This document shows, one piece after another, positions 11,482-32,690 of a DNA stretch of 64,000 bases. The translations under genes and the position numbers were made by a program. Below the pieces are notes generated by a model. It did no database searches and had not been told where the DNA came from. It saw only the letters and a program-made list of their open reading frames with translations. The DNA is from Clostridia bacterium (GTDB lineage: Bacteria > Bacillota > Clostridia > Christensenellales > Aristaeellaceae): the NCBI GenBank assembly GCA_017937505.1, contig JAGBDL010000060.1:1-64000 (forward strand), given 5' to 3'. How positions within the stretch are numbered: position 1 is the first letter of the stretch; each line of letters begins with the position of its first letter.

Positions 11482-11526
11482 GGCAGTCCTGTCCGTTTCT
11501 TTCAAATAATGATGTTTTCTCAAATC

Positions 11527-11555
11527 ATCATATCTCAAAAGCAAGAACATTTCAA
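11527..11555 (-). promoter_or_regulatory. Promoter of the LacI-family regulator
   Basis: On the minus strand TTGAAA (11550-11555) and TATGAT (11527-11532) are spaced by 17 bases, about 45 bases before the regulator start. Confidence 0.7.
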
Positions 11556-11667: not shown

Positions 11668-11718
11668 TTGACAAAAAACAGCTGATTCTATATAATGTCC
11701 CCAAGAGTAAGCGTTTAC
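11668..11718 (+). promoter_or_regulatory. Consensus promoter plus operator of the ribokinase operon
   Basis: TTGACA (11668-11673) and TATAAT (11691-11696) are a perfect consensus pair with a 17-base spacer. The operator GTAAGCGTTTAC (11707-11718) sits just downstream of the expected start point. Repression by a LacI-family protein here would block a very strong promoter. Confidence 0.85.
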
Positions 11719-12690: not shown

Positions 12691-12694
12691 CGCC

Positions 12695-14794: not shown

Positions 14795-14808
14795 GAGGAG
14801 GTTTCATC

Positions 14809-15975: not shown

Positions 15976-15992
15976 CAGAAAAGGAGGCCTGC

Positions 15993-17366: not shown

Positions 17367-17367
17367 C

Positions 17368-17688
17368 ATGGCGAGGCTTTATGATTTGGCCAAGGTGGTG
17401 CGCAGCAAAAACAGCGGCCCATTTGAGATCACGCTGGACGCACTGTTTGACGATCCCGCCGTGTATGAGCGCGTCAAGCGCTCGGGCGTCATCACCAAAG
17501 AACTGATCGCCCGGCTGTATCACGTGCCGGAAGAGCATGTCACCACGTTGGTTTTCTTTGATCCCGCCTGCGGCTTCAAGGCAACGTTCGCCCGCCGCGT
17601 TTCTTCCGGCACCTGCCTGGACAGCGACGTATACGGCGCGCAGCAGCACGTCCCCCTGGCTCAGGTGGAAATACCCGACGAAATCTAA
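17368..17688 (+). CDS. DUF4387 protein, small partner of the AtuA-like protein
   Basis: This 106-residue protein matches what I know of DUF4387: an N-terminal LAKVVRSKNSGPFEITLD segment, which is highly typical, and a C-terminal DVYGAQQHVPLAQVEIPDEI. Its gene starts one base after the preceding stop codon, consistent with a two-subunit complex with the DUF1446 protein. The biochemical function is not established to my knowledge. Confidence 0.85.
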   Translation: MARLYDLAKVVRSKNSGPFEITLDALFDDPAVYERVKRSGVITKELIARLYHVPEEHVTTLVFFDPACGFKATFARRVSSGTCLDSDVYGAQQHVPLAQVEIPDEI

Positions 17689-17707
17689 TCAGAATGAGGA
17701 TGAGAAA

Positions 17708-18694
17708 ATGCTGAAGCGTGAAGACCTGATCAAGAATCCTGCGCTCAAGGAGAGCAAAGCCATCGGCTGCCTGTGCGGCCTGGCCATCGGCGACAGTCTG
17801 GGCGACGCTGCCAGAAAGCAGCAGAACCGCGAAAACTACGGCATTACCACCGATTTCGGAAGCGGGGCTTCCTGGAGCACGGATGATACGGAATTCGCCA
17901 TGCTGACCGCGCGGATCCTCCTGGACTGCCGCGGCGAACTCACCAGCGACGCGGTCGTGGAGGCCTGGCTGCGGGACGTAGCCATTCAGGATGAATTCAA
18001 GCGCGGCGGAGCCAGCGAAGTGACTGCGGCCAGAAACCTGCTGCGCGGCCTTCGTCCGCCGGAATCCGGCAGATTCAACACCTTCCACATGAGCGACGGC
18101 ACGGCCATGCGCATCAGCCCGGTTGGCGTGATCTGCGCAGGCGATCCCGAACGCGCTGCCCGTCTGGCCGAAATCGACGCCTCTGTCAGCCACTCTGAGG
18201 ACGGCATATGGGGTGCGCAGGCGGTGGCCGTGGCTGTGGCGACGGCGATGGTGGACGGCACGATGGACGAGATCATCGACGCGGCGATCAGCGTGATGCC
18301 CACCGATTCCTGGCTGTATCACAACATGACGGCCGGGCTTGCGCTGGTGGAAAAGAGCCAGGGAAGCATACTGGACTGCTGGATGGAGCTGCATGATACG
18401 CTGCTGGCCAGCGCCTGGGCCACCACGGCGGAGGCCATTCCCGCCGCGTTCGCCTGCCTGAAGCTGTGCCACAAGGATTTCCGCTCCGGTCTGGTGCTGG
18501 CGGCCAACTTTGCCCGCGACGCGGACACGATCGGCGCGGTTGCCGGCGCCATTCTCGGCGCAAAATACGGCGTGGAAAGCATCCCGTCCCGCTGGGTGGA
18601 AAAGACGCGCTATCCCTCCGGCACCTGCCTGCAGTTTGCCAAGGGCCTGGATATTGTGGAAGTCGGCAAGCAGCTGGCTGAATTGATCAAATGA
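17708..18694 (+). CDS. ADP-ribosylglycohydrolase-family protein, third paralogue
   Basis: The 328-residue DraG-fold hydrolase has GCLCGLAIGDSLGDAARKQ at the start of the domain, STDDTEFAM (57-65) as first metal motif and RDADTIGAVAG (270-280) as second. Length is that of a minimal family member. AGGATGAG lies upstream of ATG 17708, and only 19 bases separate it from the DUF4387 gene. As the last gene of the six-gene operon it completes a set of three divergent paralogues sharing one promoter. Confidence 0.9.
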   Translation: MLKREDLIKNPALKESKAIGCLCGLAIGDSLGDAARKQQNRENYGITTDFGSGASWSTDDTEFAMLTARILLDCRGELTSDAVVEAWLRDVAIQDEFKRGGASEVTAARNLLRGLRPPESGRFNTFHMSDGTAMRISPVGVICAGDPERAARLAEIDASVSHSEDGIWGAQAVAVAVATAMVDGTMDEIIDAAISVMPTDSWLYHNMTAGLALVEKSQGSILDCWMELHDTLLASAWATTAEAIPAAFACLKLCHKDFRSGLVLAANFARDADTIGAVAGAILGAKYGVESIPSRWVEKTRYPSGTCLQFAKGLDIVEVGKQLAELIK

Positions 18695-18699
18695 CAAAA

Positions 18700-18727
18700 G
18701 GCGCAGGCTCCCTCATATCCCTGCGCC
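18700..18727 (+). terminator. Hairpin after the ADP-ribosylglycohydrolase operon
   Basis: GGCGCAGG (18700-18707) pairs with CCTGCGCC (18720-18727). It begins six bases after the stop codon but lacks a following T-run, so it may act as an mRNA end-protecting hairpin rather than an efficient terminator. Confidence 0.5.
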
Positions 18728-18807
18728 GTCAGGCACGGATCGTCTGTTGACGGTTCCCGCCTTCTCCTTTGCCCGCCTTGATGGGCAGCTGATATCTCAG
18801 ATTGAAT

Positions 18808-18850
18808 TGCCCCGCCTTGTCCGGTCATTTGGCCGTACAGGGCGGGGCAA
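18808..18850. terminator. Long GC-rich hairpin between convergent operons
   Basis: TTGCCCCGCC (18808-18817) pairs with GGCGGGGCAA (18841-18850), and the pairing continues inward with a small bulge. It lies between the converging ribokinase operon and polysaccharide operon. No T-run follows on either strand, so bidirectional termination is plausible but not certain. Confidence 0.55.
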
Positions 18851-18900
18851 TGCTCTTGATACCCATCTCATTTTCAAAGCATTTTTGAAACGGTGACAGC

Positions 18901-20019
18901 TCACCGGTTCAGCTCACGCGCAGCGCAGTTCAGCGCGGACGCGATCACCGCATCCATATCGTAGTACCTGTACTCGCCCAGCCGCCCGCCGAAGATCACG
19001 CGCGATTCTCCGTCTGCCAGCGCCCTGTACCGGGCGTACAGCGCGCCGTTCTTCTCGTCGTTCACCGGATAGTAGGGCTCGTCGCCGGGATGCCATTCGC
19101 TGGAATACTCCCGGCTGATGACGGTTTTGGGCAGGTCGTTCCCCTGCTCGTCCTTGCCGAAGGTAAACCACTTGTGCTCGATGATCCTGGTGTAGGGCGT
19201 CTCGGCGTCGGTGTAGTTCACGGCGGCATTGCCCTGGAAGTTGGGCATGTCCAGCAGCTCGGTTTCAAACCGCACGGAGCGGTATTCCAGCGCCCCCAGC
19301 CGGTAGCCGAAGTATGCGTCGATGGGCCCGGTGTAGACCACACGCTCTGCCAGCGCATTCAGCTCGTTCCTGTACTCCAGATAATCAATGCCCAGGCGCA
19401 CCTCGATCCCTTCCAGCAGCTTCTCCACCAGCCGGGTATAGCCGCCGACAGGAATACCCTGATAGAGCGCATTGAAGTAGTTGTTATCGAAGGTCAGGCG
19501 CACGGGCAGGCGCTTGATGATGAAGCTGGGCAGCTGATCGCAGGGGCGGCCCCACTGCTTCTGGGTATAGCCCTTGACGAGCTTCTCATAGATGTCCGTG
19601 CCCACCAGCGAAATGGCCTGCTCCTCGAGATTTCGGGGCTCGGTGATGCCCGCAGCGGCCCGCTGCTCTGCGATTTTCGCAGCGGCCTCTTCCGGCATCA
19701 CCACGCCCCACATCCGATTGAAGGTGTACATGTTGAAGGGCAGGCTGTACAGCTCGCCCTTGTAATTGGCAACAGGCGAGTTGGTGAAGCGGTTGAACGT
19801 CGCAAAGCGGCCCACATAATCCCACACCTCTTTGTTGTTGGTGTGGAAGATATGCGCGCCGTAGCGGTGGACGTCGATGCCCTCCACCTTTTCGGTGTAG
19901 ATATTGCCGGCGATGTGAGGCCGCTTGTCGATGACGAGGACGGATTTGCCGGCGGCTTTCGTCTGCTGGGCGAAGACGGAGCCGAAGAGGCCGGCGCCTG
20001 AGATTATATAATCACACAT
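18901..20019 (-). CDS. glf: UDP-galactopyranose mutase
   Basis: This 372-residue FAD-dependent enzyme converts UDP-galactopyranose to UDP-galactofuranose. The N-terminus IISGAGLFGSVFAQQ is the dinucleotide-binding loop, followed by DKRPHIAGNIYT and VHRYGAHIFHTNNKEVW, hallmark segments of Glf. Length is typical. It is the last gene of the polysaccharide operon, 120 bases after the large glycosyltransferase gene, and implies that the exported glycan contains galactofuranose. Base composition is GC-rich again, unlike the preceding gene. Confidence 0.95.
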   Translation of the reverse strand: MCDYIISGAGLFGSVFAQQTKAAGKSVLVIDKRPHIAGNIYTEKVEGIDVHRYGAHIFHTNNKEVWDYVGRFATFNRFTNSPVANYKGELYSLPFNMYTFNRMWGVVMPEEAAAKIAEQRAAAGITEPRNLEEQAISLVGTDIYEKLVKGYTQKQWGRPCDQLPSFIIKRLPVRLTFDNNYFNALYQGIPVGGYTRLVEKLLEGIEVRLGIDYLEYRNELNALAERVVYTGPIDAYFGYRLGALEYRSVRFETELLDMPNFQGNAAVNYTDAETPYTRIIEHKWFTFGKDEQGNDLPKTVISREYSSEWHPGDEPYYPVNDEKNGALYARYRALADGESRVIFGGRLGEYRYYDMDAVIASALNCAARELNR

Positions 20020-20139
20020 TCCTTCTTCATTACTATCTAATACATCAAGATCAATGCTGCACTATGGGAGTTGTGGGCTTCGGCGGCGGATCTTCTCGCT
20101 CTATTATACGATGTACCCAAGTTCATAACATTAGCTTTT

Positions 20140-23100
20140 CTAGTGAAGAAACAGTCTTACGATGTTCTTAATTTTCTCTCTCATAGCGCTTCCTCGTGGA
20201 AAAGTTCTGTTCAACCAACGATAAAATCTTACATATAATCCGTTGGGATAAATGCCCTCAAACCAGTTATTCTCGTCATAATAGTGGCTCCCACTAGAGC
20301 GACATGTAGCAAGATGATGGTTTGCGATTTCTGCATTCCAGAAGTTTAGGACACTGATAAAATCATTCCCATTGGCATCATCTTCAAAGGGAAGGGTTCC
20401 GAATGCCTGACGGTCAAACAAGTCGGAATAATGGAGGTAGTACTCATATGGAGCAGAAATAATCGCATATTGATAATCCATTTGGGAAATATAGTTTCCA
20501 AATATCTTTTTATAATCTTCAATAAACTGAATTGCGGATTCCTGAAGCAACTTGGTTATTCGCACTCCGTCGTATTCCGGCTTGTATTCCTCAAAGATAG
20601 GTTCCACTGTGCCGCTGTTCCAATGATATCCAATACATGATGGTGCCAACTCCATAAACAAATGCTCGCGTATAACGCCCGTGATAGATGGTTTGTACTG
20701 ATAGAAGCATTCGCAGGGACAGTGATACTTTACCTGCCGCTTGAAAGCAATATCGGAATTCGTGTGCATATAAAAGCTGCCCACGGGAAAACCCAGGATG
20801 TTGGAAAGCGCCGCTTCAGTCCGTCCGCTGTATCCAATATCAAAAATATAATCCCCTGGTTGAATAAAAGAGCCAAAGTATTCTTTCAGAGCATGCTTAT
20901 AAGCCGGCAAAAGCTCTAAATCAATGCATTGATCAATAATCACACGCATACAGCGAAGATAGCATGTTTGGTCAATTATCGGGCGTGAGTAGGCGATACC
21001 AGCATTTTTCAGAATAGAATGAAGGTTTTCCCACCGTTCATTCGGAATAATTGGTCTAAGATATTCCAACAGCTTAATGGGAGTAGCACTGTATACATCA
21101 ATTTTATGGCAGAGTGAATATAAATCCATTTCACTCTCAACATCCGCAAGCACCATAGCCTTTCGGCTTACCCGGATATAATTCGATTTCGTAGAAGTAT
21201 TATTTAGAATATCAAACGCTTTCTTTACTAAATAGCCATCCCGTGCAACAAAATGAATGGTTCCGATTTTCCGCTCAGCAGCGTGCTTGCTCAACCATGT
21301 GGCAACTGCAAGAAGATGAGGTCCCAAGGCTTGATAACCAATATAATTAGGGTCTCCGTTAAACGCTGTTTTTGGCCGGTAGGAAACAAAGGGGTCTCCA
21401 TAAATATGATTAGCGGTCAAAGCGAAAATATTTCGAACAGCAGGAAAATCCTTGTAACACTGGTAATAATCTTCTCGCTCCGGGTTCTCCAAGAACACAT
21501 TATGGAACAAATTTCCTCCGTATCCATCTTCATTTTGATTCTGGAAAACATCTGCGGCTTTATTAATATGACCGCTTCTCATTCCCAGTTTCTGGGGGTT
21601 TTGAAAATCAGAAATCCAATTGTCACCAATATGAAGAATAGAAGCAGGCTTCTTTACACCAAGTTTTTTGAGCATTGCTCTATAAAGATTTATGCTGTAT
21701 TTGGTTTGGAGATAGGTGGAGGAAACGAAAATATCATGATAATTCGTGTAACCATTATTTAGCAGGATTGTTTCTATGGTCTGCTGTGAGAGATACATAT
21801 CTGAGCAAATCAGTATTTTTTTGCCAGCCTCCATTGCCAGCTCGTATAATTCTTTTCCGATAGCCCTTTTTGTACAGAAATATTCTTCCAGCTCGATTTC
21901 TTTTTCCATCAAATGAATAAGCATTTCATGGTCAAAGTGATAATCCGCCTCAATTTTTTCATAAATTTCCTGAAGTGTAATTTCTTCCTTGTCAGAATTA
22001 TGCCGACTACTCTGGTTACGACATAGTTGCTCAGAGGTTATTCTAATCTGTTTGAAATTAACATAAGAAGCGGTACACTTGTTTAGCTCGTCAGAGAGAA
22101 AGTCAAACAAATCAGTGGGATTCATAAATGGGCGCTCAATTAAGGTATCAAAAACATCAAAGCTGATGTAGTCCACAGTTTTGTCAACAATTGCTTTTTT
22201 GATACCCTCTAACCAGTTGAAAGAATCCGCCAACGGAGACAGACTCCAAGAAAGATTATTCGCCTCTGTCAAATCAGGTATAATGTTAAACTGATGAATC
22301 ACTTCTGAATGCATAGAGCGCTGTCCACCTTGAATACATATATCTCGGTAGACCATACTGCCCCAACGCTGATTCCAAGCAGCATAGTGCTTCTCCAACT
22401 CCTCGTAGCGACCAGCATTCTCCAGCTGCAACTTCATAAACCGAATGGCCGCCGAGGAATCTTTGAGGTATTTTTCCAATCTTTTTCTATTACGGTGAAC
22501 CACAGTAGCTGAATCTAAATTTTTACAGTAGTAGTACAGACCTCCATGCACATTAGCTACACTCTTGGCTTGTGACCAAATTACCGAGGAAAAAGCCACA
22601 TCCTCCCACATAAGCATATGTCCGTGAGCTTTAGAAAAGCTGACAAATATCGGGTAACAGCGCTTCCAAAGTCCCATAGAATAGAGCTTATTCCAAACAA
22701 CACTCCAGCTAAAACTGCGTCCCTCCTGTTCCATGAAGGCCCGAAGGACATCCGCGCCGGACAAGTTCCAATTCTGAATACGAAAAGGATCTAAATTGCA
22801 ATATTCCTGACTATTTGTTCCCTCATAACTGTAACACCAATCACCAACCACCATTTCAGCATCAGAACTCTCTGCTTTACGGAGCAGCTTGCGATACCAG
22901 TCGAAAGAGACATAATCATCACTGTCAACAAATGCAATATAGTCACCCGTTGCGAGTTCGGAACCAGTTATGCGTGCTTGAAAAAGCCCTCTGTTTTCTC
23001 CATGATTTATTGAAACAATACGTTCATCCGCATCCATATAGCGTTGAACGATTTTTCCCGTTCCATCGGTACTGCCATCGTCCACCACAATCACTTCGAG

Positions 23101-23217
23101 ATTACTGTAGCTTTGTTCCAAAATGCTGTCCAAGCATCGCTCAAGATATTTTTCAACATTATAGGCTGGAACGACAACAGAAATCTTCTTTCCACATTCG
23201 AGTTGGTTAGTACTCAT
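20140..23217 (-). CDS. GT2 glycosyltransferase fused to a HAD-like domain
   Basis: This 1025-residue protein begins with a GT-A family-2 glycosyltransferase domain (KISVVVPAYNVEKYLERCLD; VVDDGSTDGT; VDSDDY near 98-102) to about residue 235. A HAD-superfamily domain follows, with DVFDTL (354-359), an ILICSDMYLS segment and HIGDNWISDF. The region beyond about 650 (HFVARDGYLVKKAF and following) is the conserved tail seen in large polysaccharide-locus HAD proteins. The start overlaps the exporter ATPase stop by one base, with GGGAGG upstream. The gene is visibly AT-rich, in the low 40s per cent GC by eye, against a much richer background, so it was probably acquired. Donor and acceptor sugars are unknown. 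Confidence 0.88.
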   Translation of the reverse strand: MSTNQLECGKKISVVVPAYNVEKYLERCLDSILEQSYSNLEVIVVDDGSTDGTGKIVQRYMDADERIVSINHGENRGLFQARITGSELATGDYIAFVDSDDYVSFDWYRKLLRKAESSDAEMVVGDWCYSYEGTNSQEYCNLDPFRIQNWNLSGADVLRAFMEQEGRSFSWSVVWNKLYSMGLWKRCYPIFVSFSKAHGHMLMWEDVAFSSVIWSQAKSVANVHGGLYYYCKNLDSATVVHRNRKRLEKYLKDSSAAIRFMKLQLENAGRYEELEKHYAAWNQRWGSMVYRDICIQGGQRSMHSEVIHQFNIIPDLTEANNLSWSLSPLADSFNWLEGIKKAIVDKTVDYISFDVFDTLIERPFMNPTDLFDFLSDELNKCTASYVNFKQIRITSEQLCRNQSSRHNSDKEEITLQEIYEKIEADYHFDHEMLIHLMEKEIELEEYFCTKRAIGKELYELAMEAGKKILICSDMYLSQQTIETILLNNGYTNYHDIFVSSTYLQTKYSINLYRAMLKKLGVKKPASILHIGDNWISDFQNPQKLGMRSGHINKAADVFQNQNEDGYGGNLFHNVFLENPEREDYYQCYKDFPAVRNIFALTANHIYGDPFVSYRPKTAFNGDPNYIGYQALGPHLLAVATWLSKHAAERKIGTIHFVARDGYLVKKAFDILNNTSTKSNYIRVSRKAMVLADVESEMDLYSLCHKIDVYSATPIKLLEYLRPIIPNERWENLHSILKNAGIAYSRPIIDQTCYLRCMRVIIDQCIDLELLPAYKHALKEYFGSFIQPGDYIFDIGYSGRTEAALSNILGFPVGSFYMHTNSDIAFKRQVKYHCPCECFYQYKPSITGVIREHLFMELAPSCIGYHWNSGTVEPIFEEYKPEYDGVRITKLLQESAIQFIEDYKKIFGNYISQMDYQYAIISAPYEYYLHYSDLFDRQAFGTLPFEDDANGNDFISVLNFWNAEIANHHLATCRSSGSHYYDENNWFEGIYPNGLYVRFYRWLNRTFPRGSAMREKIKNIVRLFLH

Positions 23218-23978
23218 TATTGTGAACGCCTCCCTATTTCTTGAGCTGCTAAATAGGATTCGACAACGCTTGCGCAAGAACCCCACATCATTAGTTCTCC
23301 TCTTTGCAGCCAAACCGCCTTCTGGCAAAGCTCGCGAACCTGTTCCTCGCTGTGGCTGACAAAGAGCAGGGTTGTTCCTCCCTTCATCATGTCCGCCATA
23401 CGTTCCTTGCATTTCTGCTGAAAACGAAAATCACCGACCGCCAGAATTTCGTCAACCACAAGAATATCCGCACTAACCTCAGTCGCGATAGAAAAGCCCA
23501 GCCGTGCCACCATGCCGCTGGAAAAGTTCTTCACCGGCACATCGATAAAATCCCAAAGCTCCGCAAAATCCACGATACTCTTGAAATGCTCATCCATAAA
23601 CTCTCGGTCATGGCCGAACACCGCACCGTTGAGATAGATATTCTCCCTGGCTGTCAAATCTGGATCAAAGCCTGCACCCAACTCAATCAGCGGCGCAATG
23701 CTGCCCCGCACCTGGATGCTGCCGGTGGTGGGATAAAGTACACCCGCAATACATTTGAGCAGCGTACTCTTTCCGCTGCCATTAGCTCCGATCAGTGCGA
23801 CCGCTTCTCCCCTGTTGACAGTCAGGCTTACGTCCCTTAGCGCATAAAACTCGTTAAACATCAGCTGTCTCTTGAGCAGCTTAACGATGTATTCCTTCAC
23901 CGTGTCTGTTTTCTCAGTTGCCAAATTGAAGCGCATGGATACATTTCTTACTTCAATAATGGGTGAGCCTTTATTCAT
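23217..23978 (-). CDS. Polysaccharide ABC exporter ATPase (Wzt/TagH-like)
   Basis: The 253-residue cytoplasmic ATPase energises export of a lipid-linked glycan. Walker A is GANGSGKST, the degenerate signature NFSSGMVARLGF is typical of the Wzt/TagH group, and Walker B is ILVVDEILAVGD. It lacks the C-terminal glycan-binding domain of long Wzt proteins, so export is probably not coupled to recognition of a terminal cap. The stop codon overlaps the next start in TAATG, implying coupled translation. It works with the permease at 23991-24767. Confidence 0.93.
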   Translation of the reverse strand: MNKGSPIIEVRNVSMRFNLATEKTDTVKEYIVKLLKRQLMFNEFYALRDVSLTVNRGEAVALIGANGSGKSTLLKCIAGVLYPTTGSIQVRGSIAPLIELGAGFDPDLTARENIYLNGAVFGHDREFMDEHFKSIVDFAELWDFIDVPVKNFSSGMVARLGFSIATEVSADILVVDEILAVGDFRFQQKCKERMADMMKGGTTLLFVSHSEEQVRELCQKAVWLQRGELMMWGSCASVVESYLAAQEIGRRSQ

Positions 23979-23990
23979 TGTTATCCTCCA

Positions 23991-24767
23991 TCAGATGTAC
24001 AGAATAAAGTTGCGCTGCATTTTGCGGAACACCACCAAGCCCAAAGCCAACGTCGTCAGGCTGATGAGCACGCACTTCAGCCATAGAATCGGTTCCGGAA
24101 CGGTACCATACAGAACAATTTCCCGGAAGAAGGTGATGTAGGCATACATGGGATTTCCCAAAATAACCGGCAGAACTTCCTCAGGCAACGCACTCACAGG
24201 ATAGAATATCGGCGTCAAATACATCCATGCCAGCGTCAACACACCATACAGATGGGTGATATCCCGGAAATATACGCTCAGTGCCGACAGTACCATACCA
24301 ATTCCCATAGCAAACAACAGCAGGAAGAACAGCGGCACCGGAAACAGCAGAATGGTCCAGTAGAAGGGGGACTTAGAGAAAACCATCACGACCAGAATTG
24401 CCACAAGTGAAAAGCTCATGGTCACGAAGCTGGACAATACCCGGCTGATAGGAAATATGAATTTGGGAATATATACCTTCTTAATCAAAGCACCGTTTTG
24501 CAGGACAGAATACATGCTCATATTGGTGCTCTCATTGAAGAACGTCCATAGTGTCTGACCGGTAATCAGGTAAAGTGGGTAATTTGGAATGTCAAACCGA
24601 AACATATAGCTGAATACCAGTGTCATCACACACATCATCAGCAGCGGATTCAGCAAACTCCATATATACCCGAGAAAGCTGCGCCTGTACTTTACCTTTA
24701 GATCCCGTCTGACCAGCTCTTTTAAGAGCGGCTTATACTGCAAAAAATGCTGCCATGCTTGTTTCAT
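23991..24767 (-). CDS. Polysaccharide ABC exporter permease (Wzm/TagG-like)
   Basis: This 258-residue integral membrane protein of the ABC-2 type has the amphipathic N-terminus and LKVKYRRSFLGYIWSLLNPL, the classic Wzm/TagG motif. About six hydrophobic segments follow. The start overlaps the stop of the preceding glycosyltransferase gene by four bases. Together with the neighbouring ATPase it should export a teichoic-acid-like or O-antigen-like polymer. Confidence 0.93.
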   Translation of the reverse strand: MKQAWQHFLQYKPLLKELVRRDLKVKYRRSFLGYIWSLLNPLLMMCVMTLVFSYMFRFDIPNYPLYLITGQTLWTFFNESTNMSMYSVLQNGALIKKVYIPKFIFPISRVLSSFVTMSFSLVAILVVMVFSKSPFYWTILLFPVPLFFLLLFAMGIGMVLSALSVYFRDITHLYGVLTLAWMYLTPIFYPVSALPEEVLPVILGNPMYAYITFFREIVLYGTVPEPILWLKCVLISLTTLALGLVVFRKMQRNFILYI

Positions 24768-25699
24768 TCTTTACCCCTTGATTCACAAGAATTCCGTTTC
24801 TCGATATGTTCTATGTCCGATCGGAAAAAGATTCCCGCCCACATTCCCCATAGAAGAACTCGGAATCTGGGCCATTTGGGCTTTCCATGCCAGACAATCC
24901 AGAATAAATCCCGACACCGCTTGGCCAAGCAATAGGCTCTCCCTTTGAACCCCTCCTGACGGTAGAGATGCGCTTCATTGCGGAATGCATAGAAGTATCG
25001 TCCGATCCGCTCCACATCATCAAGCGCCACGTTGGAACCCACATTGCTTTTTGTAGCATGAACCACCTGACTCTGTCCTGCTATAAAGCAGGGCATACCG
25101 CCTCTCACTGCAATCCGTCGGGTATACTCAATATCGTCACCCCATATCCAGTATTGCTTTATCGGTAGCCCAAAGCTGCAAATTGTTTCTGATCGGAGGA
25201 AGAGCGACACAAACGTTGCCTGCTCCGCCTGCACCAAACCATGCTTCAGCAGAGGACTGTATTCATAAAAGCTCCTTTTCAGCTTCTGCCGGTTCATCTC
25301 GCATTCGCTGCCGTCGGTCCACAGCGCCACACTGCTGAGCCAACCGTATTTTCCATTCAGGATGTGATCCGCTTCCAACAGCTTTTCAAGCGCATCGGAT
25401 TCCGGCAGGGTATCGTCATCCATCACCCATACATAGTCGTACCCAGCCTCCACCGCCCAGCGCATGCCGTAGTTGAAGCCACCAGCGCCGCCCAGATTGC
25501 TGCCGGTATTGCGATGGTTCAGGTCTTGCTGCTCATTCAGCCACTTGGCTGTTCCATCCGTGCTGGCATTATCCACAATCAGAATATCGCAGGCTTCCGT
25601 CTGGCTCCGAAGGGCTTGTACACACTGCCGCATCAAATCCAGCCGATTATATGTGACGACTACCGCCGCAACCGGTCGTTTTGTTCCGCTCCTCGGCAT
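24764..25699 (-). CDS. GT2 glycosyltransferase, galactofuranosyltransferase-like
   Basis: This 311-residue family-2 glycosyltransferase has VAAVVVTYNRLDLMRQCV at the start of the GT-A fold, DNASTDGT, the metal-binding WVMDDDT and the downstream WGDDIEYTRR motif shared with GlfT1-type and rhamnosyl transferases. UDP-galactopyranose mutase in the same operon makes galactofuranose a likely donor. ATG at 25699 has AGGAG nine bases upstream, inside the helicase gene, so the two coding regions overlap by 53 bases. Confidence 0.88.
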   Translation of the reverse strand: MPRSGTKRPVAAVVVTYNRLDLMRQCVQALRSQTEACDILIVDNASTDGTAKWLNEQQDLNHRNTGSNLGGAGGFNYGMRWAVEAGYDYVWVMDDDTLPESDALEKLLEADHILNGKYGWLSSVALWTDGSECEMNRQKLKRSFYEYSPLLKHGLVQAEQATFVSLFLRSETICSFGLPIKQYWIWGDDIEYTRRIAVRGGMPCFIAGQSQVVHATKSNVGSNVALDDVERIGRYFYAFRNEAHLYRQEGFKGRAYCLAKRCRDLFWIVWHGKPKWPRFRVLLWGMWAGIFFRSDIEHIEKRNSCESRGKE

Positions 25700-27812
25700 C
25701 CCACACAACTCCTATGTCTTCCAATTTTGCGAACCGCTCCGTGGTCATGATACAGTTGCTGTTCTTTCCCGGAGTCTTTTTTGCGCTCTTCTGCCTGGCC
25801 AGCCACTTCCCCAGCTTGTAGCCATCCGGCGTGCAGTAAACATAAGGAATGTCCAGATTCCCATTTTGCCGGTAGTATTCCTCCGCCCTGGCATAGGCGC
25901 TGCTCCACTGGGCGTCAAACGTACCGTCCCAGATCATCCCGATGGCGCTGAGCTTGTCGATCTGCGTCTGAGACAGTGTTTTGCCTTTTCCCTCGCTGGT
26001 TCGGTTTCTTCTCTGCGCCGCGACCCAAAGCCCCAGCAGGAAGCCGTCCCCCGTCCGGTAGGTACGGGGAATGTCCAGACTGCCATGCGTCTCAAAATAT
26101 GCCTTTGCCTGCCTGTAATGCATTTCCCAGCGGGCATCAAACACATCCCAGACCATGCCGATTTCCTCCAGCTTGACGGCCCGATCTGCCGGAAGCTTTC
26201 CGTTCTTCCTTCGGCTTCGCTGGTAGGCAATCCACTTGCCCAGGTCGAATCCGCCGATCATCAGGCTGTCCGGAACCAGCAGGTCTCCGTTCGCCTGCGC
26301 ATACTCCCGGGCCAGCTCAAAGGCGTCGTTCCAGGCAGTGTCCGGCAGATTCCCCCAGACCATGCCGATAGCGTCAAGCGCCTCCACCCGTTCCGGGGAT
26401 AGCTCCCCCTTTCCGGTGCCGCTGTATATCGCCCGCTGGCTCTGAATCCAGACGCCCAGCTGCATGCCGCTATCCGTGACGTAGCGTCTGGGCACCTTCA
26501 GATTCCCATGCCTGATATAGTAGGAACGGGCCTCGGCATACCACATGTCCCACGTATTGCTGAGCGCCTTTTCCAACTCCTGCACCAGATGCGCGCCATC
26601 CTCCACCTGCTCCTCGATTTGAAACGCCTCTACCCGGATCAGGCTGTCCTGCCCGGTCTGGCGCAGTCTGCGGGCGGCGTCCGCCATCTCTGCGCGGATG
26701 GTTCCAATGCTGGTCAGGCCATCGAAGTTGTTGACCACGTCCAGAATCAGGGGCGTTTCCATGGTGCCGGCGGTCAGCGCTCTGCCGATCTGCTGCTTGT
26801 ACAGGATCGGTGAACTCGTGGGCCGGAACAGGATCACACCGCTGACATCCGGCACATGAATGCCCTCATTCAGCCGGTTGATGCACAGCAGCAGCTTGAT
26901 ATGCTCACTCTGATCCGCCAGGAATGCGGCGTATTCCGCCTCCGTTTCGGGCTTTCCCGCATACAGGCAATAGCAGTGGGGTGCACTGTCCACTTCCCGA
27001 AACCAGCGCGGGATGCTTGATCGGATCTCTTGAACATGTGCCCAGTCGGCACAGAAGAGAATGTACTTCCCGCCCTTTTTCAACCAGCGGGCAAAGATGC
27101 TCTCCAGCCCGTCAGCCCGGCACAGCGCCCGGCGCAGGGCATCCAGACACCGCTGACCGGGCTCCTTCATGCCCTGGGGCACCATGGTATCGATGTGCTT
27201 CTGGTAGCGACGCAGCTCGTGCTGATATCGAAGCATGGTCGTCACATACCTCGGCGCGGGCAGAATTCCCCGGACGATCGCCTCGCTCAGCGTCATCTCG
27301 CTGGCCACGCAGAGCCGGCCATCCACGGTGAACAGCTCCTCCGCCATGTTCCGGCAGTTGTCCAGATAGCGGATCGGGGTCGCCGACAGGCCCAGCACCT
27401 TCGCCTTGGGATACGCCTTCAGCAGCCGTTCCACGCCCCTGCCCCAGCAGTAGGCGCCGCAGCGATGGAACTCGTCCGGAATGATGGTTTCCGGCCGCAG
27501 CGCCATAAGCGCCTCCTCCGAGAGCCGCAGGAGCTTCGTGTAGGTCATGAATTCCACATTGGAGAACTTCCTCTGCGCATTGCGCTTCTGGTTCTCGAAG
27601 ATATAATCATTGGGAGACAGCCACAGGAACCGGTCATCCGGATGATCCTCGACGAGCTGGAAGGCCAGAAAGCTCTTTCCGGTCCCAGTGGGATGGATCA
27701 CGGCGGCGCGGCGGTGGCGCTCCAGCATGGTCACTGCCGCTTCATAGGCTATTTGGTTGTGCGTATAAAGCCGCACCGCTGCGCTCCCTTCCGCAATCAA
27801 CATAATCAGCAT
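25647..27812 (-). CDS. DEAD/DEAH-type helicase with four helicase-associated (HA) repeats
   Basis: The product is a 721-residue SF2 helicase-like ATPase: Walker A PTGTGKS (41-47), DEFH (113-116) in place of DEAD, SATP (143-146), and a C-terminal helicase lobe with YKQQIGRAL. From about residue 430 four tandem HA repeats follow, each with a YxxxxGxLxVP-like segment, an LGxWxxxQR segment and an LxxIGMVWD end. They probably bind nucleic acid. It is the first gene downstream of the invertible segment. As sequenced, its ATG (27812) lies inside the left inverted repeat with no Shine-Dalgarno sequence; inversion would give a five-residue-longer form with one. Its job in a polysaccharide operon is unknown. 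Confidence 0.88.
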   Translation of the reverse strand: MLIMLIAEGSAAVRLYTHNQIAYEAAVTMLERHRRAAVIHPTGTGKSFLAFQLVEDHPDDRFLWLSPNDYIFENQKRNAQRKFSNVEFMTYTKLLRLSEEALMALRPETIIPDEFHRCGAYCWGRGVERLLKAYPKAKVLGLSATPIRYLDNCRNMAEELFTVDGRLCVASEMTLSEAIVRGILPAPRYVTTMLRYQHELRRYQKHIDTMVPQGMKEPGQRCLDALRRALCRADGLESIFARWLKKGGKYILFCADWAHVQEIRSSIPRWFREVDSAPHCYCLYAGKPETEAEYAAFLADQSEHIKLLLCINRLNEGIHVPDVSGVILFRPTSSPILYKQQIGRALTAGTMETPLILDVVNNFDGLTSIGTIRAEMADAARRLRQTGQDSLIRVEAFQIEEQVEDGAHLVQELEKALSNTWDMWYAEARSYYIRHGNLKVPRRYVTDSGMQLGVWIQSQRAIYSGTGKGELSPERVEALDAIGMVWGNLPDTAWNDAFELAREYAQANGDLLVPDSLMIGGFDLGKWIAYQRSRRKNGKLPADRAVKLEEIGMVWDVFDARWEMHYRQAKAYFETHGSLDIPRTYRTGDGFLLGLWVAAQRRNRTSEGKGKTLSQTQIDKLSAIGMIWDGTFDAQWSSAYARAEEYYRQNGNLDIPYVYCTPDGYKLGKWLARQKSAKKTPGKNSNCIMTTERFAKLEDIGVVWDAEERNKTTGCGGSRHI

Positions 27813-27817
27813 TATGT
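27800..27817 (+). repeat. Left inverted repeat of the switch
   Basis: ACATAATCAGCATTATGT, the exact reverse complement of 28043-28060. It contains the present helicase start codon on the minus strand. Past a one-base mismatch outside the 18 bp, GTT is also shared. Confidence 0.88.
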
Positions 27818-27931
27818 CGTTTTGCAGGAGTGCAGATCATCTATAAACGTCCAAAAAGAGTATAAATAACAAAGCTCTTCTTATTCCCTGTAAAAAACGG
27901 GCATTGAAGGGCTTTTGGTGTTCATGCGATT

Positions 27932-27958
27932 AAAAACCTGTTGTCATCATTTCAGGTT
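27932..27958 (-). terminator. Terminator of the recombinase transcript, inside the invertible segment
   Basis: AACCTG (27935-27940) pairs with CAGGTT (27953-27958), and leftward transcripts run into GGTTTTTAAT. It would stop read-through from the recombinase into the helicase operon, leaving the operon dependent on the invertible promoter. Confidence 0.6.
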
Positions 27959-27976
27959 ATTTGTGTATATAGGGGA

Positions 27977-28005
27977 TTGAATGTAACCGGAAATCGTGCT
28001 AGAAT
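27977..28005 (+). promoter_or_regulatory. Promoter inside the invertible segment, currently pointing away from the operon
   Basis: TTGAAT (27977-27982) and TAGAAT (28000-28005) are 17 bases apart, with TG one base before the -10 box (extended -10). A second, weaker pair is TTGTCA (27941-27946) with TGTATA (27964-27969). Downstream, GGAG (28021-28024) precedes ATG (28033) by 8 bases; this ATG becomes the helicase start after inversion. Confidence 0.65.
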
Positions 28006-28042
28006 GGATTGAACGACTATGGAGTATAGTGGATGATTAACA

Positions 28043-28060
28043 ACATAATGCTGATTATGT
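28043..28060 (-). repeat. Right inverted repeat of the switch
   Basis: ACATAATGCTGATTATGT on the plus strand, exact reverse complement of 27800-27817. It lies between the recombinase stop codon and the segment interior. Confidence 0.88.
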
Positions 28061-28066
28061 CGCTTT

Positions 28067-28906
28067 CTAGAGCACGAGCCCCAGGCATTCCATCTTCCGG
28101 CGGTGCTCCACGCCCGTTGTCATGATGTAGATTCGGGTTGTGTTGATGCTGCTGTGGCCCAGAATGTCCGCCAGCTTCGCGATATCCTTCTCCAGTCCAT
28201 AGAATGTACGGGCAAACAGCTTGCGCAGATTGTGCGGAAAGACCTTGCTGGCCTTCACGCACGCCTTTTCGCACAGCGCCTTCATCTGCGCCCAGATACT
28301 GCTTCGATTGAGCGGCTGTCCGCTTCGGGTGATGAAAATCGCGCCGGAGCGGATGTCGCTTTTCTTTGCGTAGGCCAGCAGAAAGCCGCGCAGCTTTCCG
28401 GGGATCAGAATGGTCCGGGTCTTGCTCTTGCACCGGACGGTAATCTCTCCGCGCTGAACATCCTCCACGGTGAAAAAGCGCAGCTCACTCACGCGGATGC
28501 CGGTTCCGCAGATGGTTTCCAGAATCAGCCGAAGCCGGGAGTGCCGCCCTGCCGCGTCAAGCAGGCGCAGATACTCTGCCTTCGTCAGCTCCTTTTCCTC
28601 CGCGCAGTAGGCCGGCTGCTGCAGCTTCAGGCTCTTCACCCTGCAGTCCTGCCAGTTCTTATGATCCAGAAAGCAGTTGATGCTGGCCAGCATGGAATTG
28701 ATGGAGCGAACCGCGTAGCCCTTCTCCAGCAGATGCTGCTTGTAGGCCATCACCACCTCCTTGGTCACCGCCTGATTCTCCGCAAAGACAGAAAAAGCGC
28801 GGACGTCCCGAAGATACTTCTCCACGGTCGCCCTGCTCTTTTCTTCCAGCACAAGGGATTCCTCAAAGGCGTCAAGCTCGTTTTTTGTCAGCAATCGCTC
28901 TTTCAT
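28067..28906 (-). CDS. Tyrosine site-specific recombinase (likely DNA invertase)
   Basis: This 279-residue protein has an N-terminal SAM-like core-binding domain (about 15-100) and a C-terminal catalytic domain. Active-site residues appear complete: Arg138 (GTGIRVSEL), a lysine near 160, His225 and Arg228 (PHNLRK), His251 (LGHSS) and nucleophile Tyr260 (TRIYI). ATG at 28906 is chosen over an upstream start because the domain and GAGGG site fit. Placed directly beside the inverted repeats, it is the obvious candidate to flip them. No excisionase or phage genes are nearby, so a prophage integrase is less likely. Confidence 0.92.
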   Translation of the reverse strand: MKERLLTKNELDAFEESLVLEEKSRATVEKYLRDVRAFSVFAENQAVTKEVVMAYKQHLLEKGYAVRSINSMLASINCFLDHKNWQDCRVKSLKLQQPAYCAEEKELTKAEYLRLLDAAGRHSRLRLILETICGTGIRVSELRFFTVEDVQRGEITVRCKSKTRTILIPGKLRGFLLAYAKKSDIRSGAIFITRSGQPLNRSSIWAQMKALCEKACVKASKVFPHNLRKLFARTFYGLEKDIAKLADILGHSSINTTRIYIMTTGVEHRRKMECLGLVL

Positions 28907-29177
28907 TTCAATCAACCCTCGGCCGCCATGTGTCCGCACCCTTCGAAAGGAAAGCATGCGGACAGGCGGCCGCCTTTCTCATCAATTGAATCCGGGCAGC
29001 TGCACGCCCGGCGATCCCTGTTCCCGAACGCAGCAGCGGCATTCCCTCTGTATGCTTTCACCCACATTGAATGCAGCGATCCCAATGATCGCAAAAGCAG
29101 AGATACTGTTCAATTCCTTTTCAAATGGCTATATCCTTCAAGGACTTGCCTGCATCCCCGGATATATACCGCTCCAT

Positions 29178-29210
29178 GACAAAAAGGACAGAATACATCT
29201 TCTGTCCTTT
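29178..29210 (-). terminator. Strong intrinsic terminator hairpin
   Basis: AAAGGACAGAA (29183-29193) pairs perfectly with TTCTGTCCTTT (29200-29210) around a 6-base loop. Leftward transcripts continue into TTTTTGTC. It is the second terminator after the GntR gene, which leaves room for a short transcript between 29210 and 29440. Confidence 0.7.
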
Positions 29211-29441
29211 GAGCGCTTTCAAACAGAAGAACGGATTCTGTCCCTTCCGGATTTCCCATGTATGGTTTGCAGCTATACCGTTGACATGCTCGGACGATGG
29301 CGATATCTTCTTCCCGGAGCATCGATCCAGCTTCCTTCATTGCTGTCTCAGCGGCTTCAATGAGAAGCCATCCATGCCCTTCTCCAATCCCCAGGCTTCC
29401 GCGAAGAACCGGTTTATTCAGCGGATGTGCCCGCACAGATC

Positions 29442-29472
29442 AAAAGGGACCGCCTCCTGTTAAGGCAGTCCC
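29442..29472 (-). terminator. Terminator after the GntR regulator
   Basis: GGGAC and GCCT (29446-29455, one mismatch) pair with AGGC and GTCCC (29463-29472), followed leftward by TTTTGATC. It lies 36 bases after the regulator stop codon. Confidence 0.7.
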
Positions 29473-29507
29473 TGAAGGTTCGAAGAGATGATCGATTTGC
29501 AGTCGCG

Positions 29508-30227
29508 TTACTGCCTTTCCTCCTTGTCGCTTCGGATCTTGTTGAGCACATCAAACAGATGCTCCTGCATCGCATCCGACGCCTCCTGCGGCTTGTGCTC
29601 CGCAATCGCAACACAGATTCTCGAATGATACTCGTGACTCTTCTCAACACCGTGGTTGCGCTGGAATCCGATCAACCAAGTGGTATACATCGTCTCGATC
29701 ATTTCTGCCGTGCGAATGAACAGCGGGTTGCAGGAGGCCTCGGCTACCATCCGGTGAAACGCCATGTCGTATTTCGCGAACTGATCGTCATCCCCCTCCA
29801 TGTACTTAGCTGCTTCCTCACACAGCTCATACAGCCGGGAAATCTGCTCCGGCGTAGCCTTCTGCGCAGCCAGCCGGGCCGCCATGCTCTCTATGCCAAT
29901 GCGGTACTCCGTCGCAGCGGCCAGATCCTGCCCATTTGCCAGCATGCACGGCAGAATGGAATTGGCATACATGCCGATGTTCATGCTTCGCACACAGTTG
30001 CCATAGCCCTGCTGGTTCTCCACAATGCCCAGCGCGATCAGCTTGCTCATCGCCGTGCGTACCGTATTGCGGCTGACGCCCAGCGCTTCAGAAAGCTGCG
30101 ATTCCGAAGGCAGCTTGCTGCCCTCCGGGTATTGTCCGGAAGCCAGAATCACCAGCAGCTGGGAATACACCTCGTCAACGAGATTGCTCTTCTTGATTTT
30201 TTCCATACAATCAACCATCCTGTTCAT
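29508..30227 (-). CDS. GntR-family (FadR/FCD type) transcriptional regulator
   Basis: The 239-residue regulator has a winged helix-turn-helix at about 18-80 (GSKLPSESQLSEALGVSRNT) and an all-helical FCD effector domain (YDMAFHRMVAEASCNPLF is typical, with Asp and His metal ligands). GGGGAG lies five bases before ATG 30227, so this start is preferred over the two internal ATGs. FCD regulators respond to sugar acids or related metabolites. A FadR-like site at 38571-38581 in the importer promoter is a plausible target. Confidence 0.9.
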   Translation of the reverse strand: MNRMVDCMEKIKKSNLVDEVYSQLLVILASGQYPEGSKLPSESQLSEALGVSRNTVRTAMSKLIALGIVENQQGYGNCVRSMNIGMYANSILPCMLANGQDLAAATEYRIGIESMAARLAAQKATPEQISRLYELCEEAAKYMEGDDDQFAKYDMAFHRMVAEASCNPLFIRTAEMIETMYTTWLIGFQRNHGVEKSHEYHSRICVAIAEHKPQEASDAMQEHLFDVLNKIRSDKEERQ

Positions 30228-30241
30228 TGGTACTCCCCATA

Positions 30242-30270
30242 ATATTAGTTTTTCTGGTTCCCATTGTCAA
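30242..30270 (-). promoter_or_regulatory. Promoter of the GntR regulator
   Basis: On the minus strand TTGACA (30265-30270) and TAATAT (30242-30247) are 17 bases apart; the regulator start is only 15 bases beyond the -10 box, so the leader is very short. Confidence 0.7.
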
Positions 30271-30282
30271 CGATTTTGTCTT

Positions 30283-30642
30283 CTACTCCTTCAAAAACAG
30301 CACAATTGCCAGATAGACCAGATCCTCGCTTTCATCCAAATTGAGGATCTCATGCGCGTGACCGGAGGGCGTGATGTTCACATCGCCCGGATACACCGTG
30401 TATTCGCTGCCGTCCTCCTCCCGAACCACGCCGCGGCCGGAAAGGAAATAGCAGATCTCCGTATCCCCGGAATGCCGGTGCATGCCCACAGAATGCCCCG
30501 GCTTCAGCGTACCGCGGACAAACAGCCTGCCCGCCTGCCCCAGCTGCTCCCGCGTGAGGATCGTCTCCACGCCAAATTCTCCGTTGCCGCCATGCTTGGC
30601 CACATCGCTGGAGCGCGGATAAGCGTCGCTTCGAATAATCAT
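30283..30642 (-). CDS. Small single-domain cupin protein
   Basis: This 119-residue cytoplasmic cupin shows the first cupin motif as GHSVGMHRHSGDTEICYFLSG (His ligands in MHRH, Glu downstream) and the second as PGDVNITPSGHAHEILN. GGGGGAG precedes ATG 30642. It sits between a lipoprotein gene and the GntR gene. Substrate is unknown; small metal-dependent cupins in sugar operons often act as isomerases, lyases or sensors of sugar acids. Confidence 0.87.
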   Translation of the reverse strand: MIIRSDAYPRSSDVAKHGGNGEFGVETILTREQLGQAGRLFVRGTLKPGHSVGMHRHSGDTEICYFLSGRGVVREEDGSEYTVYPGDVNITPSGHAHEILNLDESEDLVYLAIVLFLKE

Positions 30643-30653
30643 GCGTCTCCCCC

Positions 30654-30971
30654 CTATTTCCTGACGTAATCCACTGAATCGATGGTGATCGTCTTTTCGT
30701 CCTTCTGCTCATAGGCATACGAGAAATTGCCGAACCTGGTCAGCAGCGTCAGCGTGCCATCCTTGATCTGATAGTCGACCGTCTGCTGCACGTCGCCCGA
30801 GATCATCGTCACCTTGTTGCCCGTGAACGTGACCTCCTGAATGACCATTTCCCCGCTGTCGACGGGCGGGTTCACCGCCGCATAGGTGCCCTCCAGCGTG
30901 TTCGCCTGCTGGCAGCCTGTCAGCAGGATCAGCACGAGCAGCAGAGCGATCCACAAAGCGCTTCGTTTCAT
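30654..30971 (-). CDS. Small lipoprotein of unknown function
   Basis: This 105-residue exported lipoprotein has a short basic N-terminus, the hydrophobic stretch ALWIALLLVLILLTGC and a canonical lipobox LTGC. The mature part (about 84 residues) has alternating strands such as TFTGNKVTMISGD and YQIKDGTLTLLTRFG, suggesting a small beta-barrel of the DUF5640/lipocalin-like kind. AGGAGG lies 8 bases before ATG 30971. Its canonical lipobox contrasts with the binding proteins of this window. Confidence 0.8.
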   Translation of the reverse strand: MKRSALWIALLLVLILLTGCQQANTLEGTYAAVNPPVDSGEMVIQEVTFTGNKVTMISGDVQQTVDYQIKDGTLTLLTRFGNFSYAYEQKDEKTITIDSVDYVRK

Positions 30972-30995
30972 CGTCAATCCTCCTGTCGCCCCGAA

Positions 30996-31592
30996 TCAGC
31001 GGGTAGCATGGGCCATTTCCCAGTAGACCCGTGCGTTCTCCTCGATCAGCTCCGCGTTGTTCTGCGCGTCCTGCATCGTCCCGGCAAAAGATACGAGGCC
31101 ATGCTCCTCCAGCAGGAAGCAGCGTACATCCGGTTGGCTGTCCAGCAGCGCGTCAATCATCGCCATGCCCGCCTCGTCAACCGTGTTGTGCTTGATCTTG
31201 AGGATCGGCACGGGCCGGCTGGTGATCTGCTTCATCTGCTTGGTGACCAGCGGCAGCTCATCAAAGCAGTTGGCACACATGATGGCGTACACAGGATGCA
31301 CGTGCACCACGGCCCCGATCTGCGGCAGCCTGCGGTACAGCCCGCCGTGAAGAATCGTTTCCTTCGTGGGCTTGGCGCTGCCCTCCACCAGATTGCCATG
31401 CAGATCGGCGATGACCAGGTTGGACTCGTCCACCTCTCCCAGCGTAATGCCGGAGGGCTTGACGATCATCAGCTCCGTATTGGGGATGCGGATGCTCAGG
31501 TTGCCGCCGGAGCCGGCCGCCAGGCCGCACGCAAACGCCCGGCGCGACGCAGCCAGATAGGCATTCTTGGCCTTGAGGAATTCCAGATACAT
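30996..31592 (-). CDS. Class II aldolase/adducin-family protein (fuculose-phosphate aldolase-like)
   Basis: The 198-residue cytoplasmic Zn-dependent aldolase has SGGNLSIRI at the start, the catalytic glutamate in PTKETILHGGLYR (Glu78), zinc ligands in VVHVHP (His97, His99) and a third histidine in EEHGL (His164). The family cleaves L-fuculose-, L-rhamnulose- or tetronate-type phosphates or epimerises ribulose-5-phosphate. No sugar kinase is adjacent, so the true substrate is unclear. AAAGGAG lies 9 bases upstream of ATG 31592. It follows the terminator at 31654-31690 and has its own promoter-like boxes. Confidence 0.9.
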   Translation of the reverse strand: MYLEFLKAKNAYLAASRRAFACGLAAGSGGNLSIRIPNTELMIVKPSGITLGEVDESNLVIADLHGNLVEGSAKPTKETILHGGLYRRLPQIGAVVHVHPVYAIMCANCFDELPLVTKQMKQITSRPVPILKIKHNTVDEAGMAMIDALLDSQPDVRCFLLEEHGLVSFAGTMQDAQNNAELIEENARVYWEMAHATR

Positions 31593-31624
31593 GTCAAGAC
31601 ACTCCTTTGTCCATGGTTTTCCCT

Positions 31625-31653
31625 ATGATATCACGCAAGCTCTGCAGAAACAA
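31625..31653 (-). promoter_or_regulatory. Probable promoter of the aldolase-lipoprotein-cupin genes
   Basis: On the minus strand TTGTTT (31648-31653) and TATCAT (31625-31630) are spaced by 17 bases, directly after the hairpin that ends the importer transcript. Confidence 0.5.
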
Positions 31654-31690
31654 GACCGGCCTATGACCCATGAAGGGGCATAGGCCGGTC
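31654..31690 (-). terminator. Terminator hairpin after the Rbs-type importer operon
   Basis: GACCGGCCTATG (31654-31665) pairs perfectly with CATAGGCCGGTC (31679-31690), followed leftward by TTGTTT. It splits the long minus-strand gene run into an importer transcript and an aldolase transcript. Confidence 0.75.
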
Positions 31691-31757
31691 ACTATTTAGC
31701 TGGCAGGAGCTTTTCAGGAATCAGATTTCAGTTCTTGCGCCCTCGCGCGGTATGCAA

Positions 31758-32690
31758 TCAGCGATACAGGCTGGTGTTGTCCTTGGTCACCAGCGTCATC
31801 GGGATGTACTGCTCCGGCGCGACCTTGTAGCCGTTGCACGCCAGCAGGCAGGCGTAGATGCAGTTGGCAATCTGGCTCTTCTCCTCCTGCGCGCCGGTCA
31901 GCAGGATCTCGCCCGCGTCGATAGCGTCCAGGCAGTCGTTATCCACGTCGAAGGTGACCTGGATCATCTCGTCCTGACGGTCCGCATCCTTGATGGCCTC
32001 GATCGCGCCCATCGTCATGTCCTTGTTGACAGAGGCGACGCCGTCGATGTGGTCATAGCGCTGCAGGAAGTTCTCCATGACCGTCATGCCCTTCTCACGG
32101 TTGAAGTCAGCCGGCTGAGAGTCGAGCAGCACGATGTCCGGATACTCGGCGAACGCATCCTTGTAGCCGTCAACACGCTCGGTCGAGGTGGAGTTGCCCG
32201 CCGTGCCTTCGATCAGCACCACGTTGCCCTTGCCCTCGAGCGCGTCGCACAGCGCCTTGCCCAGCTGATAGCCGACGGTGTAGTTGTCCACGCCGACCCA
32301 GCAGAGCACGTCGCCGCCGTATGCCTTGGTGTTCGGGGTCGCAATCGGGATGCCCGCCGCATTGGCGGCCTCAATCGCGGGGATGATGCCCGTGGAATCC
32401 GCAGGCGTGATCATGATGGCGTCCACGCCGTTGGTAATGGCCTGCTCAACGAGCTCAATCTGCTCGCTGACGCTGTACGGGGTCTCGGGGCCCTCGCAAA
32501 CGATGTGGATGTTGTCCACCAAGGAAGCGGCAGCCTCGGCGCCATCGATCATGCTCAGCATGAAGCTGAACTGCATGCTCTTGACGATAAAGACGAACTC
32601 ATAGGTCTTGTCGGCAGCTTCCGCAGCGCCGAAGGAGACCATGGACAGGCACAGGGCGATCGTCAGCAGAATCGAAACAAACTTCTTCAT
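31758..32690 (-). CDS. RbsB-type sugar-binding protein
   Basis: This 310-residue exported binding protein of the periplasmic-binding-protein type-1 family recognises a small sugar or polyol for the importer encoded upstream. A signal peptide with FGAAEAAD cleavage region is present, without a lipobox cysteine. The body has YEFVFIVKSMQFSFM, QAITNGVDAIMITPAD, and AANAAGIPIATPNTKAYGG, all characteristic. ATG at 32690 has AAAGGAGG at 6-base spacing; ATG at 32696 is too close to it. It is the last gene before the terminator. Confidence 0.9.
   Translation of the reverse strand: MKKFVSILLTIALCLSMVSFGAAEAADKTYEFVFIVKSMQFSFMLSMIDGAEAAASLVDNIHIVCEGPETPYSVSEQIELVEQAITNGVDAIMITPADSTGIIPAIEAANAAGIPIATPNTKAYGGDVLCWVGVDNYTVGYQLGKALCDALEGKGNVVLIEGTAGNSTSTERVDGYKDAFAEYPDIVLLDSQPADFNREKGMTVMENFLQRYDHIDGVASVNKDMTMGAIEAIKDADRQDEMIQVTFDVDNDCLDAIDAGEILLTGAQEEKSQIANCIYACLLACNGYKVAPEQYIPMTLVTKDNTSLYR

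Follow-up and report, generated by a model that had tools for sequence, protein, structure and literature searches.

The window, a stretch of 64,000 nucleotides from a Clostridia bacterium, contains what is in all likelihood an on/off phase-variation switch, in which a tyrosine recombinase inverts a promoter segment ahead of a glycan operon. The first gene of this operon encodes an SF2 helicase with HA repeats, whose association with switched glycan operons is conserved in Clostridia. A first-pass annotation had proposed both an invertible promoter with its cognate tyrosine recombinase and a glycan-export operon behind it. Both proposals find support in the sequence and in the comparison with relatives. 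The switch is made up of the following features, given in window coordinates.

27800-28060, no strand: invertible segment including both repeats, 261 bp, 36% GC (57% for the window)
27800-27817, + strand: left recombination site, ACATAATCAGCATTATGT; across 38 related loci the arms are conserved and the core varies from locus to locus
28043-28060, - strand: right recombination site, a perfect inverted copy of the left and its sole other match in the genome
27977-28005, + strand: predicted extended -10 promoter, TTGAAT-17-(TG)nTAGAAT, a consensus match with the same hexamers in the related locus L039
28067-28957, - strand: Xer-like tyrosine recombinase, 296 aa, the probable invertase (PF00589, 7e-24; XerD/XerA structure alignment)
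29183-29210, - strand: terminator-like hairpin upstream of the recombinase, an 11-bp stem followed by TTTTTGT, with a putative function

The 18-bp inverted repeats described in the first-pass annotation are both perfect and lie where it had placed them. Each forms a palindrome, its 7-bp arms ACATAAT and ATTATGT enclosing an asymmetric CAGC core. The further claim that this is the layout of a tyrosine-recombinase site also holds, the cores being paired within related loci. Ungapped extension widens the repeat match to 27 nt at 89%. In dif-type terms the site reads ACATAA, a 6-bp centre and TTATGT, an arrangement that resembles dif in its inner arms. The chance expectation for such repeat pairs in the window is about 0.0005 under a uniform base model. 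A search of the whole 3.1-Mb genome with the pattern ACATAATNNNNATTATGT gave no further match beyond the two sites. The locus combines the sequence features of an inverton: an intergenic segment between inverted recombination sites, an outward promoter within the segment, and an adjacent tyrosine recombinase that is complete and has kept its catalytic residues.

Between the end of the recombinase ORF at 28067 and the right repeat there are 6 bases. The protein aligns to the XerA and XerD structures over its length, and the alignment places the catalytic residues at R155, K177/K179, H242, R245, H268 and Y277. It scores below the XerC/XerD equivalog cut-offs (112.1 vs 329.6 bits for XerD; 103.8 vs 335.15 bits) and, judged by its sequence, is not the housekeeping XerC or XerD. 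The upstream terminator-like hairpin suggests that the recombinase forms its own transcription unit. Across 29183-29246 of the - strand, three related arms, AAAGGACAGAA/TTCTGTCCTTT, may form alternative hairpins upstream of the recombinase, one of them terminator-like.

Relatives of the recombinase (45-84% identity) were collected from named genomes and from further genomes covering several genera, families and the class. Nearly all relatives with enough downstream sequence have a site pair that begins close to the stop codon of the recombinase gene, with a spacing of about 170-350 bp. The 38 related loci first examined come from many Clostridia, Holdemania and Collinsella. By automatic site call, both sites share an identical 4-bp core in 36 of them; the two exceptions, L050 and L051, are sites mis-located by the script. 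There are 27 distinct cores among the 38 loci and none is palindromic. Site pairs found later have identical cores in all but one case. Conserved arms around a core that is locus-specific but paired are the mark of a tyrosine-recombinase strand-exchange site. Among the relatives, L052 has a damaged site and L071 has no detectable site pair. Another relative, L045, has a single site with an HTH gene adjoining, possibly a decayed or different arrangement.

Homologous segments of this family occur in opposite orientations. When compared without their repeats, the segments of L067 and L072 score 231 inverted and 20 direct, against a null maximum of 32. The same type of comparison puts L164 and L165 in the opposite orientation to L059 and L061, L164 also opposite to L058 and L064, and L153 opposite to L159. 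These opposite orientations between genomes indicate that the window's recombinase family inverts DNA. Relatives that retain the repeats without ever inverting had been named beforehand as an outcome that would overturn the reading. The result speaks in its favour: opposite orientations were found in the segments of the recombinase family, in helicase-linked integrase segments and, by promoter direction, between the window and L039. Both orientations are present across the recombinase family, and we infer that the window segment also inverts in the source strain. The source genome and Candidatus Aphodomonas merdavium (class Clostridia) belong to the same family; the same-family locus L053 lies within its contig L047.

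The cargo of the recombinase family is not only glycan operons, as shown by probable surface-protein neighbours at four loci. At L041, L042 and L048 the family is found upstream of probable surface proteins with SipW/TasA-like N-termini, and at L147, from Pusillibacter faecalis, upstream of an S-layer homology protein.

The only good promoter in the window segment is directed away from the helicase, toward the 3′ end of the recombinase gene. The assembled orientation is accordingly read as OFF, a call that depends on promoter direction and on a promoter predicted from its consensus match. The closest relative, L039 (recombinase 84% and helicase 77% identical), has the same hexamers and the same 37 bp from the -10 to the repeat, with the promoter facing the helicase, i.e. 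ON. By promoter direction, the window and L039 are opposite. Direct alignment of the window segment with L039 and L052 was dropped as proof of inversion, the inverted scores of 29 and 32 vs 22 direct being near the null maximum and too weak alone; the OFF state is therefore read from the direction of the promoter. Of the 38 related segments, 28 contain a promoter scoring 11 or more, compared with 4.5% of shuffles. Orientation by promoter across the 38 related assemblies gave 23 OFF, 6 ON and 9 ambiguous.

The glycan operon runs leftward from the segment and consists of the following features.

27784-27792, - strand: helicase Shine-Dalgarno (SD) sequence GGAAGGGAG, outside the segment, with matching SD and starts in homologues
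25647-27776, - strand: SF2 helicase with four HA repeats, first operon gene, GTG start, VRLYTHNQIAYEAA... (PF04851, PF00271, PF03457 x4)
24764-25699, - strand: GT2 glycosyltransferase by profile matches, closest NCBIfam model galactofuranosyltransferase GlfT1 (below cut-off)
23991-24767, - strand: ABC-2 permease, Wzm-like (galactan exporter model, below cut-off)
23217-23978, - strand: ABC exporter ATPase, Wzt/TagH-like (below cut-off; closest to teichoic-acid/galactan exporters)
20140-23217, - strand: large GT2 glycosyltransferase by profile match, 1025 aa, start ATG at 23217
18901-20019, - strand: UDP-galactopyranose mutase (GLF; PF03275, 5.6e-79), last gene before convergent + strand ORFs

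The GT2 gene overlaps the 3′ end of the helicase gene, and the same overlap is found in F. hattorii. The operon end was set at GLF because the minus-strand ORFs of 12620-18697 have no Pfam match at 1e-5 and long + strand ORFs lie there. The gene content points to an ABC-exported, galactofuranose-containing glycan, with NCBIfam matches that are all below their cut-offs, and the product is presumably a surface glycan. Rfam gave no match in 18000-32000. Further left, a perfect consensus TTGACA-17-TATAAT is found at 11668-11696 on the + strand, next to a LacI-family regulator gene (10477-11550, minus strand).

The helicase most likely starts at the GTG at 27776 with its own SD, rather than at the ATG at 27812 inside the repeat. 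A start codon carried by the segment was considered, as the segment, when inverted in silico, supplies an ATG in frame together with an SD (MINNIMLIML...). This candidate was ruled out: homologues favour the GTG and its SD, and the ATG frame is lost in L039.

In the proposed mechanism, the adjacent recombinase would bind the two dif-like sites, and strand exchange within their common asymmetric core would invert the 261-bp segment. In the assembled state the promoter would fire toward the 3′ end of the recombinase gene, leaving the glycan operon OFF. After inversion it would read across the left repeat into the helicase gene and on into the genes for galactofuranan-type synthesis and ABC export (ON). 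The recombinase gene and the SD and start codon of the helicase lie outside the segment and would be unchanged by inversion. Transcription from the segment promoter is predicted from its motif.

Each 18-mer is palindromic and the pair flanks a promoter, so the repeats might be read as two operators for a dimeric DNA-binding protein. This reading is barely credible: operators would not need a core that is locus-specific yet identical within a locus, the sites accompany the window's recombinase family, and homologous segments are found inverted. The locus could also be a former switch that is now locked OFF in the source lineage. The excess of OFF assemblies in the family would fit such a loss, as would the site defects of L052 and L071. 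A locked state is nonetheless improbable, as the two window sites match perfectly and the full-length recombinase ORF has lost none of its catalytic residues; the OFF bias of assemblies can also come from selection in culture or gut. A working promoter-inversion switch is the preferred reading.

Helicase homologues of at least 42% identity were collected from other Clostridia together with their surroundings. Of these, 26 loci have enough upstream sequence, and 18 of the 26 carry an inverted-repeat pair with a score of at least 18 within 2 kb upstream. None of the 217 control regions taken from the same contigs does (Fisher test, p about 2e-21, for loci that are not independent). Three distant HA-helicases (about 32% identity) have no upstream inverted-repeat pair. 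The first-pass annotation had pointed to the helicase as first gene of this locus; the helicase does come first, and the arrangement is not peculiar to the window but is a recurrent architecture in Clostridia. Among the 67 genes just downstream of the helicases, 18 encode priming sugar transferases (PF02397), and the other leading families are mostly glycan enzymes. In Ruminococcus albus 7, HA-helicases are found at the end of a plasmid-borne glycan cluster.

The upstream switches of HA-helicases have at least two unrelated architectures. One is that of the window, with a short segment and the recombinase outside it. The other is a 1.3-1.5-kb segment with a phage-type integrase inside (PF14659 + PF00589) and unrelated repeats. 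In the genus Faecalibacterium, three of 12 integrase segments (L131, L133 and L136) are inverted vs the nine others, with orientation scores of up to about 2000 vs about 25. In a quick tree of the helicases, the window's switch type falls in two separate clades. It seems, from these sequences, that the recombination system has been exchanged while the helicase and glycan genes stayed together.

Several individual loci illustrate the range of arrangements. The Faecalibacterium loci, L131-L142, have 1.45-kb integrase-inside segments upstream of HA-helicase EPS operons (e.g. L135:2548-4002), with repeats such as GTATCCTCCATAGTGATAATGGAGGA. A second integrase-inside type, with repeats of the form TTTTAAGTAnnnTACTTAAAA, is found upstream of HA-helicases at L083, L084, L086 and L124, where the direction of the integrase varies among loci. 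Genome G522 has two further repeat types upstream of HA-helicases, at L087:1842-2155 and L081:605-1028 (helicase turned to +), and no recombinase is adjacent on these short contigs. At L120 (G700:C73) two tandem HA-helicases stand behind one switch, and five HA-helicase matches occur in that genome.

The function of the helicase can be approached through an analogy. Capsule loci of Bacteroides have invertible promoters and UpxY as first gene, the position that the helicase takes in the window's operon. Our guess is that the helicase is an operon-specific transcription or nucleic-acid remodelling factor, and the leading form of this guess is a UpxY-like operon factor. It is tentatively suggested, as a possibility only, that HA-repeat helicases are the Clostridia counterpart of UpxY: an operon-specific factor needed for, or favouring, long-operon expression, and retained while the inversion machinery was replaced more than once. 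Structure comparison finds generic SF2 translocases (RadD, SauUSI, XPB and CSB) and is not decisive. Phage records hold distant relatives only, the best 28% identical over 97% of the query.

Alternatively, the helicase may be switched for its own sake as an anti-phage factor, with the glycan genes secondary. Phase variation is known for defence genes, restriction- and defence-helicase models in PADLOC give weak matches to the helicase domain, and the fold resembles RadD and SauUSI. The PADLOC matches are, however, limited to the shared helicase core, and no defence partner genes were seen. The homologues instead head glycan operons of diverse gene content and occur in the R. albus 7 glycan cluster, which makes a defence role unlikely. 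The enrichment of inverted repeats upstream of helicases could also mean that the helicase is an accessory factor assisting inversion. Most related recombinases, however, switch other genes with no helicase near, the helicase accompanies different switch types, and the R. albus HA-helicases have no annotated adjacent integrase; an accessory role is highly improbable. Between these proposals, the UpxY-like operon factor is kept as the leading guess.

Phase-variable surface glycans have received far more attention in Bacteroides than in Clostridia. The latter include Faecalibacterium, in which homologues of the HA-helicase likewise lie behind segments seen in both orientations. Should the HA-helicase prove to be a dedicated operon partner, it would provide a ready genome marker for switched glycan loci and a new, testable control route for a long glycan operon.

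An invertible promoter with an adjacent tyrosine recombinase is already known in Clostridia, and the switch itself is ordinary. The less ordinary part is the link of the HA-helicase to switched glycan operons; a limited literature search combining the helicase with EPS or with invertible promoters turned up nothing relevant and no paper describing this link. In 2025, Clostridia inverton group 139 and tyrosine-type invertase group 35 were reported, with inversion shown by reads, e.g. in Clostridium sp. D5 and Intestinimonas butyriciproducens (PMC11892184). Group 139 segments measure about 200-300 bp and lie close to a tyrosine-type recombinase, and 32 of the 33 group members are in Clostridia; helicases and glycosyltransferases are not mentioned in the main text of that report (PMC11892184). 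The window fits on its Clostridia host and on a tyrosine-type recombinase less than 5 kb from the inverton, and its switch is very probably of the group 139/group 35 kind (PMC11892184).

Compared with XerC/XerD-dif, the window recombinase is of the Xer type. The difference lies in the paired inverted sites, the local switch and scores far below the XerC/XerD cut-offs. The Faecalibacterium integrase-inside switches share the first gene (about 49% identical), the glycan operon downstream and the inverted repeats upstream; they differ in the 1.45-kb segment, which holds the phage-type integrase, and in their unrelated repeats. The Bacteroides UpxY loci are similar in having an invertible promoter before a glycan operon, a conserved non-glycan first gene and several loci per genome, as with the HA-helicases of genomes G458, G700, G771, G792 and G780. 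In contrast, the first gene of the window encodes an HA-repeat SF2 helicase and not a NusG-type antiterminator, which sets the locus apart from true UpxY loci, and the recombinase gene in Clostridia adjoins the segment, or lies within it in other relatives.
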